From the IMG/VR virus record IMGVR_UViG_3300025010_002037, positions 1 to 43,732 of that record: DNA of 43,732 nucleotides. One strand, 5' to 3'. The translations under genes were made by a program, and so were the position numbers. The notes below the pieces were generated by a model, which was given only the letters and a program-made list of their open reading frames with translations, was not told the origin of the DNA and made no database searches. Positions within the stretch are counted from its first letter, which is position 1, and the number at the start of each line of letters is the position of its first letter. Shown here one piece after another: positions 402-43,732 of the stretch. The DNA comes from a virus.

Positions 402-2015
402 TTATTTGCAACTATTTTCATTAAAAACATGAAAAAAATAGAAGTTGGGAAATTTTACACCCCAACTTCTATTATAGAACCTTACTTTTAACATGTATAG
501 CGGAAACCCGACATTAGATACAGTAGCGACATTTATATTTGTCAATACTTCATAATTATCATCATTTATAGTTATTTTTTTAACATATTTTTGTATTATT
601 TCTTTTTGCTTTTTAGGCTCTAAGGTTTTTAAACTCTTTACAGCTTGCAAATCTTCTTTTATTTTATCTGTATCACGAGCGGCAGTTAGTTTGATTTTTT
701 CTTCTGCTATCATAACAACTAGATTATTTTTCTTATCTTCTAGTTCTGACATCTTGTCCTTCATTGCGGGGTTGTAAAATCCATTAGCAACAGCTTCGAC
801 TATGTTAGCTATTTGTTTTTCTGTATCTTTTAATTCCTTTTCGAATACAGTTATTTCACTTTTATATTCGCTTTTGAATTTTTCCAATTCTTTTTCTATA
901 TTTTTAAGTAATTTATCTATAGCGTCTTTATTAAAAAGTTTGGTTTCAAGTAATTCTATAACCGCATTCTCAATTTCATCTTTTTTAATTTCTTTCAAAG
1001 TACAATTACCTTTCTTTTTGTCACCACAAACGTATGACGAATATATACTATTTTTATTAGCACCACCTTTACGTGTGCTACCAGTCAATAGACTTCCGCA
1101 TTTTCCGCAATATAATTTACCAGCTAACAAATATATGTTTTCAACAGTATTAAAACTTCTAAATATTTTCTTATTTTTTTCTAACATAATTTCCACCTCG
1201 CTAAAAGTTTTTTTATCTATAATAATTGGGATAGCGTTATCAATAGTTATAATGACATCATCATTATTTTTTCTAAATATTTTTTTTCCTTGCTCTGTTT
1301 TTAAATTGTGAGTTTTATTAAAAACATATTTACCTGTGTATTTCTCATTTTTTAGTATAGAGTATATTGATGTATGAGTAAAATTTTTATTACTTCTTGT
1401 TTTATAACCTTTTTCTTTTAATATTTTACATATAGTCCTATAGCCTGTCCCTTTTAAATATTCGCTAAATATAAAACGTACTATAAAAGCCTCATGCTCA
1501 TTTATAACGTAGTTATTATCACTATCTGTATCATAACCAAGTGGAAGTATTCCCCCGTTAAATTTAGCTTTGTATGCATTTTCTTTTAAACCTTTCATTA
1601 CCTCTCTTGCTAGGTTTCTTGAATAATATTCAGCGAATGCTTCAATACTGCTTTCAAGTATGATACTTTCAGGGCTATCATCTATACGTTCTAGTACTGA
1701 TACTATTTTTATACCTAGCAGTTTTAATTTACGTTTGTATACCGCACTGTCATATCTATCACGGAATATTCTATCAAGCTTGTGAACTATTATATAATTT
1801 ATACCTATTGAATTTTTGGTGTCAACTAGTAGGTTGATCATCTTCTGAAAATTAGTTCTATTATCTGTTGTTGCTGATTCTGCTCTATCAACGTATATTT
1901 GCATTATTTGAGTATTGTTATCAGATGCATATTTTTCTATCTCTCTTATTTGTGCTTCTATTGACTCTTCCCGTTGCCCTCTACTACTAAACCTACAATA
2001 AGCGAATGCTTTCAT
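402..2015 (-). CDS. Large serine recombinase (phage integrase)
   Basis: This enzyme should integrate and excise the prophage. The 537-residue protein has an N-terminal resolvase domain with the catalytic serine in YCRFSSRGQ (Ser10) and the conserved arginine region HKLDRIFRDRYD, then a recombinase domain (GGILPLGYDTD; GTGYRTICKILKEKGY), a zinc ribbon (LYCGKCGSLL ... YVCGDKKKGNC) and a lysine/glutamate-rich coiled coil, the order usual for large serine integrases. ATG 2015 follows CGGAGGTGGT. The attL core (496-508) lies inside the gene: the last 30 residues, after NVGFPLY, are read from chromosomal DNA, including the old tRNA terminator. In the excised circle the frame would continue instead to YTVATTIIRNKK and stop, giving about 519 residues. 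The first gene of the lysogeny module, transcribed away from the lytic genes. Confidence 0.95.
   Translation of the reverse strand: MKAFAYCRFSSRGQREESIEAQIREIEKYASDNNTQIMQIYVDRAESATTDNRTNFQKMINLLVDTKNSIGINYIIVHKLDRIFRDRYDSAVYKRKLKLLGIKIVSVLERIDDSPESIILESSIEAFAEYYSRNLAREVMKGLKENAYKAKFNGGILPLGYDTDSDNNYVINEHEAFIVRFIFSEYLKGTGYRTICKILKEKGYKTRSNKNFTHTSIYSILKNEKYTGKYVFNKTHNLKTEQGKKIFRKNNDDVIITIDNAIPIIIDKKTFSEVEIMLEKNKKIFRSFNTVENIYLLAGKLYCGKCGSLLTGSTRKGGANKNSIYSSYVCGDKKKGNCTLKEIKKDEIENAVIELLETKLFNKDAIDKLLKNIEKELEKFKSEYKSEITVFEKELKDTEKQIANIVEAVANGFYNPAMKDKMSELEDKKNNLVVMIAEEKIKLTAARDTDKIKEDLQAVKSLKTLEPKKQKEIIQKYVKKITINDDNYEVLTNINVATVSNVGFPLYMLKVRFYNRSWGVKFPNFYFFHVFNENSCK
431..472 (-). terminator. Chromosomal terminator displaced from tRNA-Met
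   Basis: A perfect 12-bp stem (ATAGAAGTTGGG at 438-449 with CCCAACTTCTAT at 461-472, 11-nt loop) is followed on the minus strand by seven T. In the empty site this hairpin would stand about 24 bases after the tRNA-Met 3' end, so it is probably the original tRNA terminator. In the lysogen it sits inside the extended 3' end of the recombinase gene. Confidence 0.75.
496..531. other. attL: left prophage boundary
   Basis: The 13-bp core TATAGCGGAAACC (496-508) also occurs at 42588-42600; flanking bases differ on both sides (G versus A to the left, C versus G to the right). To the right, on the phage side, lies the arm TACAGTAGCGACA (519-531), the exact reverse complement of the phage-side arm at attR. 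To the left is chromosome that carried the sequence downstream of tRNA-Met. Confidence 0.88.
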
Positions 2016-4766: not shown

Positions 4767-5168
4767 TCATTCGATTTTTGCGTTTTTCACGATACTGTGT
4801 CCAAGTTTGAAAGCATTTATTAACATTTCTTTTTCGGCTTCTGTCAATACTAATTTATCTCCTGTAGCAGATACCAGTTCATTGTTATTTACTTGTTGAA
4901 TTAGATTGTTAAGTTGGTCATTTGCATTTGAAGGATTTTCTTTAATTTCTTCTTTATCTTCCATTAAATCAGATTTTAATATTCCGAAATAATCCGCCAA
5001 CATTTGCATTTTATCTATTCTTGGATATTTTTTACCATTGCACCAAGAAGATATAGTTGCCGACGGAAGTTTTAGTTCATTCATTAAATCTATTTGAGTT
5101 TTATCTTTTAAAAACATCCATCTTTTTAAATTTCTTGAAAAAATCTTTTTCTGTCCTGTATTATCCAT
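4767..5168 (-). CDS. CI-like phage repressor (XRE family HTH)
   Basis: Likely keeps the lytic promoter silent. The 133-residue product has an N-terminal helix-turn-helix of the XRE type (about residues 9-65: FSRNLKRWMFLKDKTQIDL, LPSATISSWCNGKKYPR, LADYFGI), then a glutamine/asparagine-rich linker and a short C-terminal helical segment (TEAEKEMLINAFKL). There is no peptidase S24 domain, so RecA-type self-cleavage is not expected. ATG 5168 after AGAGGTGAT is preferred over the upstream in-frame start at 5192, which overlaps the promoter. It is divergent from the Cro-like gene across a 133-bp switch region. Confidence 0.9.
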   Translation of the reverse strand: MDNTGQKKIFSRNLKRWMFLKDKTQIDLMNELKLPSATISSWCNGKKYPRIDKMQMLADYFGILKSDLMEDKEEIKENPSNANDQLNNLIQQVNNNELVSATGDKLVLTEAEKEMLINAFKLGHSIVKNAKIE

Positions 5169-5190
5169 AAAGATCACCTCTTTTTTACAC

Positions 5191-5219
5191 ATTATACACC
5201 TTTATAAAGAAAAAAGCAA
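5191..5219 (-). promoter_or_regulatory. Repressor promoter
   Basis: On the minus strand TTGCTT (5219-5214), 17-bp spacer, TATAAT (5196-5191), 23 bases before the repressor start. It is back-to-back with the lytic promoter; operator O1 begins 17 bases upstream of its -35. Confidence 0.7.
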
Positions 5220-42527: not shown

Positions 42528-42556
42528 AAAAGTAGCCCGTAACCGGGCTACTTTTT
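42528..42556. terminator. Bidirectional terminator at the right prophage end
   Basis: Perfect 12-bp stem AAAAGTAGCCCG (42528-42539) with CGGGCTACTTTT (42544-42555), 4-base loop TAAC, with T-runs on both strands. Rightward it ends the lysis/late transcript. Leftward it now ends tRNA-Met transcription in the lysogen, and in the excised phage would end the recombinase gene, whose alternative stop codon (42550-42548) lies within the stem. Confidence 0.88.
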
Positions 42557-42571
42557 ATTTCTTATTATAGT

Positions 42572-42600
42572 TGTCGCTACTGTATAATATAGCGGAAACC
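42572..42600. other. attR: right prophage boundary
   Basis: Phage-side arm TGTCGCTACTGTA (42572-42584), then TAA, then the core TATAGCGGAAACC (42588-42600), which is the 3' end of tRNA-Met on the minus strand. The arm is the exact reverse complement of the attL phage arm (519-531). Confidence 0.88.
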
Positions 42601-42663
42601 GGATTTGAACCCCCGACACTGCGGGTATGAACCGCATGCTCTAGCCAACTGAGCTATTCCGCC
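42590..42663 (-). tRNA. tRNA-Met (CAT), prophage attachment target
   Basis: Minus-strand cloverleaf: acceptor GGCGGAA with TTCCGCT (G1-U72), D-arm GCTC/GAGC, anticodon stem TGCGG/CCGCA with loop TTCATAC (anticodon CAT), variable loop GTGTC, T-loop TTCAAAT. CCA is not encoded. The loop context suits elongator Met; tRNA-Ile with modified CAU is less likely. The T-stem is poor: GGGGG faces CCGGT, giving two G-G oppositions and one G-U. The phage core supplies the last bases, so the gene stays full length after integration. Confidence 0.82.
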
Positions 42664-42710
42664 ATGTATTTGATTTTCGAGACTTCTACGAAAATATTTT
42701 CATATCAATT

Positions 42711-42739
42711 AATATACCACATTATATCATAAAAGTCAA
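42711..42739 (-). promoter_or_regulatory. Promoter of tRNA-Met
   Basis: Minus strand TTGACT (42739-42734), 17-bp spacer, TATATT (42716-42711), about 48 bases upstream of the tRNA 5' end. Confidence 0.65.
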
Positions 42740-42756: not shown

Positions 42757-42951
42757 TCAGGATAAACTTATAAAAATTTTTATTACCCTTATATCAAATT
42801 TTAGCCATTTTTCTCCCGATGCGTCATCCTGAGGAGAGTGTTTTTCTCGCAGCTCTTTCAATACTGTTGTATTATCAAATAAGTCTATATTTATTTTGTT
42901 TTCTTTAAATAAGTTTTCTATTTCGTTTAGTTTTTTTGCTTTCTTGCCATT
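42757..42951 (-). pseudogene. Start-less coding remnant inside the repeat element
   Basis: A minus-strand open frame of 64 codons reads like protein (GKKAKKLNEIENLFKENK, INIDLFDNTTVLKELREK) but begins after two stop codons, has no start, and its C-terminus runs into the inner repeat arm. It may be a fragment of a helical protein captured by the element. Not identified. Confidence 0.3.
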
Positions 42952-43154
42952 TCATCAACCTTCTTTTATATATTTTTTCTCCATTGTATCAGAAAGTTAT
43001 TATAGAAAGGTTTCTATTTTATTACGTATATGTTATATTTTTAACTCAAATACTAAAAAGCAGATTCTCACGTCGAGAAAAACACTCTCCTCAGGATGAC
43101 AATTTGGGCGTATTTGGCATTTCTGTAAAAACAGAGGGATTTATAAGTTTATCC
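42758..43154. mobile_element. MITE-like element with nested inverted repeats
   Basis: Outer perfect inverted repeat of 17 bp (CAGGATAAACTTATAAA at 42758-42774; complement at 43140-43156) and an inner perfect one of 27 bp (42823-42849 with 43074-43100, starting GTCATCCTGAGGAGAGTG). The 11-bp direct repeat TGAGCATTTTT occurs at 42747-42757 and 43155-43165, as expected of a target duplication, though it overlaps the outer repeat by two bases on the right. No transposase is inside. The short CATCCTGAGG motif recalls dispersed repeats seen in many bacterial genomes (from memory). Confidence 0.6.
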
Positions 43155-43230
43155 TGAGCATTTTTTAGGTAAAACGCATGAAAAAATTTATTTGGTTAAT
43201 TCTATCTCTTATACCAAATATCCTGATTTT

Positions 43231-43315: not shown

Positions 43316-43732
43316 GTGGTAGATATAGCGAGTAATACAGTTTATGTAAAATTAGAAAATAAGGTAAGTATAACAAGTAGCACAAGTATAAAAATAATGG
43401 ATATAGCAAAGATTATAGCAGAAGGTGTTCTTAAAGGTGAAATAGAGGAAATGAAGATTTATGAAATAGGCGAAATGAAGAAAGCGCTATATTCTATAGA
43501 TATAGTAGATGTTATAAGTAAAATAAATAGCATTCATCCAGAGCTTGACATAGAAAGTATAGGTGAAAAGGAGACGGTAATCGAGTATCTAAATAATGAA
43601 AAAAAGCCGTCAGCATTATGGGAATTTACTAAAGTTGGTTTCGTATGTTTAATAATATTTTTTGGGGCAATGGTTGCGATAATGACATTTCATACGGACG
43701 TTGCAATGCCTGAGGTACATCGAAAGATATAC
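43316..43732 (+). CDS. spoVAA: Stage V sporulation protein AA (partial, 3' end outside window)
   Basis: 139 codons to the window end. NTVYVKLENKVSITSSTSIK, IMDIAKIIAEGVLKGEIEEM and the region DVISKINSIHPELDIESIGE are the SpoVAA N-terminal domain; a membrane helix follows (VGFVCLIIFFGAMVAIMTF). SpoVA proteins form the forespore inner-membrane channel for dipicolinic acid. The only standard start is GTG 43316, which overlaps AGAGGTGG; an ATA at 43325 has ideal spacing from that site and could be the true start. A SpoVA operon should continue to the right. Confidence 0.88.
   Translation, partial: MVDIASNTVYVKLENKVSITSSTSIKIMDIAKIIAEGVLKGEIEEMKIYEIGEMKKALYSIDIVDVISKINSIHPELDIESIGEKETVIEYLNNEKKPSALWEFTKVGFVCLIIFFGAMVAIMTFHTDVAMPEVHRKIY

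Follow-up and report, generated by a model that had tools for sequence, protein, structure and literature searches.

An attachment site that lies within the integrase gene is already published for DsiB of Dehalococcoides and for the myxophage Mx8. DsiB is a large serine recombinase specific for ssrA, whose gene invariably shares its 3' end with attL at a stable-RNA gene (PMC3146451). The dsiB stop codon is found outside the element, and the authors suggested that full function is perhaps attained only on the circular element (PMC3146451). In Mx8, the integrase coding sequence contains attP, and integration provides int with a new 3' end and a reported change of specificity, according to a review (PMC6070905, citing Tojo, 1996; Magrini, 1999). 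A comparable layout underlies integration-dependent immunity in mycobacteriophages, where attP is located in the repressor gene and the C termini of the viral and prophage proteins differ (PMC8092301, citing Broussard, 2013). In some cases attB overlaps the 3' end of a tRNA, and the viral repressor typically carries an ssrA-like degradation tag (PMC8092301).

Here we focus on a viral locus in the window, by which we mean the whole 43,732-nt stretch of IMGVR_UViG_3300025010_002037. Its integrase is like DsiB in being a large serine recombinase with a 3' end that overlaps attL at a stable-RNA gene. The DsiB elements, however, are genomic islands at ssrA that carry a second, small serine recombinase (DsiA) alongside, whereas here the element is a prophage at tRNA-Met with int on the strand of the tRNA, and the neighboring ORFs that were scanned contain no recombinase domain. 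The likeness to Mx8, as far as the review describes that phage, is an attP inside int and a new int 3' end upon integration. The Mx8 integrase is a tyrosine recombinase, unlike the serine integrase of the window. In the mycobacteriophages it is the repressor gene that holds attP, in contrast to the window, where int holds it and a gene with an HTH lies separately at 4767-5192. Natural pairs of integrases throughout a clade, a swap that falls before the last strand of the protein, and in-frame conservation of the swapped tail were not found in a limited search of the literature.

Attachment site and integrase gene of the window

The int product carries the Pfam domains Resolvase (PF00239), Recombinase (PF07508), and Zn_ribbon_recom (PF13408), all of which exceed the cut-off, and a model of the protein has a long coiled coil in the C-terminal domain (helices 363-410 and 416-444). 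The features of the locus are as follows.

402..2015, minus strand: large serine integrase gene int, lysogen form, 537 aa (from the ORF, domain matches, and model)
402..495, minus strand: chromosomal continuation of int in the lysogen, MLKVRFYNRSWGVKFPNFYFFHVFNENSCK, stop TAA at 404-402
433..473 (about), minus strand: hairpin and T-run, -18.7 kcal/mol, z -5.5, upstream of the lysogen int stop
496..508: left, int-side copy of the att core TATAGCGGAAACC, coding for about residues 503-507 of int
518..531: left arm of the putative attP dyad, 14 bp, perfect, within the int coding region
42528..42555: predicted bidirectional phage terminator, whose 5' arm holds the phage-form int stop; in the lysogen it closely follows tRNA-Met
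42548..42587, minus strand: predicted phage-form continuation of int, which completes Tyr507 and adds YTVATTIIRNKK, stop TAG at 42550-42548
42572..42585: right arm of the putative attP dyad, 14 bp, perfect; in the circular phage it would code for YTVATT of the phage-form tail
42588..42600: right copy of the att core TATAGCGGAAACC, the 3' end of tRNA-Met
42589..42664, minus strand: tRNA-Met (CAT), the target gene, intact at the right end, with no encoded CCA
42711..42739, minus strand: promoter-like TTGACT-17-TATATT upstream of tRNA-Met, a consensus match only and equally frequent in shuffled sequence

The 13-bp core occurs exactly twice in the window, against a chance expectation of 0.01 with one mismatch allowed. 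Core and dyad both fall inside the integrase reading frame, and the two arms, which are separated by 24 nt, become symmetric about the core only once the ends are joined. Such a core-centered inverted repeat is the shape expected for the attP of a serine integrase. We therefore read the window as a prophage with attP embedded in the 3' end of int and with the 3' end of a tRNA gene as its target, as one part of an explanation in which, taken whole, we have moderate confidence.

The codon at 497 (TAC) takes the last two bases of the core, and joined to 42587 it would become TAT. Both frames stay open with unlike tails, giving a lysogen form in which residues 508-537 are read from flanking chromosomal DNA and a phage form of 519 residues (507 + 12). 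The original prediction had placed the core in the recombinase frame and extended the lysogen protein by 30 residues into the chromosome, and the coordinates bear this out, with 496-508 inside 402-2015 and a total of 537 residues. Its arithmetic for the circular phage, with the frame running through 42587-42548 to TAG after 519 residues, is also correct; the join of 496 to 42587 is one that we infer. This join is supported by the 14-bp inverted repeat that is symmetric only after joining and by relatives in which both forms are found. A free or joined form of this very phage was found in none of the collections searched. That the enzyme encoded by the circular phage must differ at its tail from the one encoded by the lysogen is thus a supported reading of the sequence.

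The chromosomal flanks give some indication of the host. The start of a gene for stage V sporulation protein AA (SporV_AA, PF12164) occupies 43328-43732 in the right flank, which suggests that the host is probably a spore-former. In searches of 6 genomes, and of 249 from the order to which one of them belongs, hardly anything apart from the tRNA matched. The window gene lacks an encoded CCA, in contrast to the tRNA-Met genes that were listed for the searched genomes. Between tRNA-Met and the SporV_AA gene (42757-43157), two perfect inverted repeats of 18 and 27 nt are nested in the manner of a small non-autonomous mobile element, and in the left chromosomal flank an ORF on the minus strand (1-345) has an ISL3-type transposase zinc finger.

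Two tails in relatives of the integrase

Relatives up to about 51% identical were gathered by alignment-based scans of viral contigs and GTDB genomes; a single-protein query gave only 27% matches, while alignment queries worked for close relatives. The integrase ORF overlaps an intact tRNA or tmRNA gene in 29 of 80 GTDB genome loci, against an expectation of 0.46 derived from the remainder of these loci. The target of DsiB is ssrA and that of the window tRNA-Met; 16 of the 29 overlapping relatives use tmRNA and the other 13 a tRNA, with int always antisense to the RNA gene.

The original prediction had proposed a look at phage-form tails, and the relatives supply both forms, which split at the core. 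The integrase DNA of L191 and L192 is identical for 1593 bp up to the core, that of L204 and L206 for 1568 bp, and that of L187 and L189 for 852 bp, after which the tails are different. In each of these natural pairs one member enters phage DNA and the other enters an RNA gene, the tail being derived from tmRNA in L191/L192 and L204/L206. An inverted repeat flanks the core in several phage-form families. Since the pairs are identical up to the core and then split, relatives do undergo the swap that is proposed for the window.

Several further observations were made among these relatives. Near the int 3' end of L186 (stop after 5737), the phage-form tail has, farther along, another core-like GGTGGAGG stretch with a similar arm. 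The L206 record (G255) holds an extra copy of the int 3' end, to about the core, at its far end (41-132), which suggests tandem elements at one tmRNA. In the Roseburia phage Shimadzu (L010, 1426-3089) the integrase is annotated as an incomplete pseudogene, and its tail may belong to the same class with attP in int. Repeated RTPVRK tails (GGGxGSRTPVRK) were considered as a protein motif and rejected, as they are an antisense reading of the tmRNA 3' end.

The phage-form tails look conserved as protein. Over the ten codons after the core, 12 phage-form families score 0.97 BLOSUM per site in the true frame versus 0.17 and 0.39 in the other frames, a comparison that favors the true frame to the extent that the tails were partly anchored by protein similarity. 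Third codon positions are the least conserved in these tails. Beyond the DNA arm, after the strand, a YR[HR] motif is encoded by different codons across seven families; it is absent from some phage-form tails (L183, L223, and L226). The phage tail of the window scores 3.3 bits against the tail profile of its relatives, a fit that 2-3% of random or shuffled tails equal and that is significant only nominally, and the lysogen tail scores -6.1. It would follow that the phage tail is functional. With the swap seen in relatives and the phage tail apparently under selection, the swap is probably not empty.

The foremost alternative is that the arrangement is a neutral by-product, in which attP sits at the int 3' end because the site is co-inherited with the recombinase, the frame is open on both sides by chance, and neither tail affects activity or level. 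The lysogen tails of the relatives run from 6 to 133 codons beyond the tRNA or tmRNA end, a spread that would suit neutrality and that argues against a dedicated lysogen-specific function. Very short tails in some relatives (e.g., L183 and L098) and an A118 integrase that does without the strand point the same way. However, in-frame conservation in 12 families, a confidently modeled strand and helix in L191, and a strong hairpin ahead of the stop in the window lysogen all speak against it, and we consider a wholly neutral origin rather unlikely.

Position of the swap and direction of recombination

Where the swap would fall in the protein was approached through a model of the phage form of L191, built on a 36-sequence alignment. 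This model has strands at 485-492 and 501-508 and a final helix at 510-516, with a mean pLDDT of 87 across residues 501-510. The core coincides with the loop between the two strands; integration would thus replace the last strand and the helix. By analogy with relatives, the swap in the window is predicted to fall in the loop ahead of the final beta-strand of the C-terminal zinc-ribbon domain. The model of the window lysogen form has a strand at 507-513 followed by disorder at low confidence, with pLDDT block means of 45 or less after residue 500. A profile alignment to the A118 integrase (4kis) ends at the strand preceding the swapped one, and A118 has no counterpart of the swapped element. 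As the A118 integrase ends before it, that enzyme can carry out the basic reaction in the absence of this strand.

Directionality of serine integrases is usually credited to the RDF alone. In the model, the swapped strand forms a hairpin with the strand to which the end of the A118 integrase aligns; a bias in direction, as the original prediction suggested, is on this basis no more than possible. In phiC31, the strand that has been equated with LI beta14 contains I582; substitutions in it interfere with RDF binding, and the I582T enzyme is inactive in integration with low excision retained (PMC5814800). A stronger proposal would be a direction switch, in which attP x attB is favored by the phage strand, and integration drops once this strand is replaced while RDF-driven excision persists, the swap itself locking the direction. 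This could draw on the strand pairing and on the phiC31 substitution, but the A118 alignment places beta14 on the unswapped strand, and the lysogen tails are too diverse for a common altered function unless the plain loss of the phage strand is itself the signal. The switch is therefore improbable in our estimation. An identity of the swapped strand with phiC31/LI beta14 was rejected, as the A118 alignment reaches only the preceding strand.

We attach equally little credence to the view that the phage-tail similarity is a pure DNA effect, whereby attP arms are inverted repeats and related attP sites hence yield related peptides, because, even though the right arm encodes much of the strand and an arm motif (AATCCACAAT) is common to several families, the same DNA is clearly less alike when read out of frame, the YR motif falls outside the arm and uses different codons, and the arms of the window differ in sequence and yet its tail outscores most random tails.

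Integrase level and the proposed course of events

A second consequence of the exchange may concern the amount of enzyme. The lysogen frame passes a hairpin and then a run of seven T ahead of its stop. The original prediction that it crosses a tRNA terminator hairpin stands as regards a strong hairpin and T-run before the stop; that this is the intrinsic terminator of the target tRNA is probable from its position just after the tRNA. If the terminator works, int transcripts should frequently lack a stop codon, and judging from the sequence this could lower the integrase after insertion. A level difference peculiar to this insertion is plausible. As a common design, a stop placed after the terminator was rejected, since in relatives of the same orientation the stop is found right after the core, in the first arm, or in the T-run. 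The viral form in mycobacteriophages typically ends in an ssrA-like tag (-AA), in contrast to the window, where the phage form ends in IIRNKK and the lysogen form in ENSCK; a degradation tag was rejected for both tails, as neither ends in -AA.

The explanation that we favor, and to which as a whole we give somewhat better than even chances, is that a selected phage tail integrates, a tolerated lysogen tail excises, and the lysogen integrase is lowered by the terminator. Recombination at the core would exchange all sequence that follows codon 507. The circular phage would encode the 519-residue enzyme, ending in a phage-coded strand, and the lysogen the 537-residue enzyme with its last 30 residues from host DNA. 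Selection at the protein level would keep the phage-coded tail, which makes the integrating form the optimized one and leaves the lysogen form as a tolerated variant. The latter must still work in excision because the phage form is not encoded in the lysogen, and we infer that excision uses it. Part of the int messages in the lysogen would end without a stop at the hairpin and T-run, and ribosome rescue would remove their product, with less integrase after integration as the outcome.

A bolder form of this explanation, which we regard as very tentative, is a built-in isoform switch in which integration removes the selected strand and puts a terminator before the stop. The integrating enzyme would destroy its own best coding form, the lysogen would keep a weaker, scarcer, excision-only version, and the strand swap would be common to the whole tRNA/tmRNA-targeting clade.

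By the layout of the gene, integration and excision would be carried out by two different proteins. The natural matched pairs differ only at the tail, and so the role of the C-terminal strand is directly testable. Integrase sequences of this clade that derive from lysogens end in tails supplied by host tRNA or tmRNA genes and are perhaps not the integrating forms; the origin of the tail therefore matters when such integrases are mined as genome-engineering tools.
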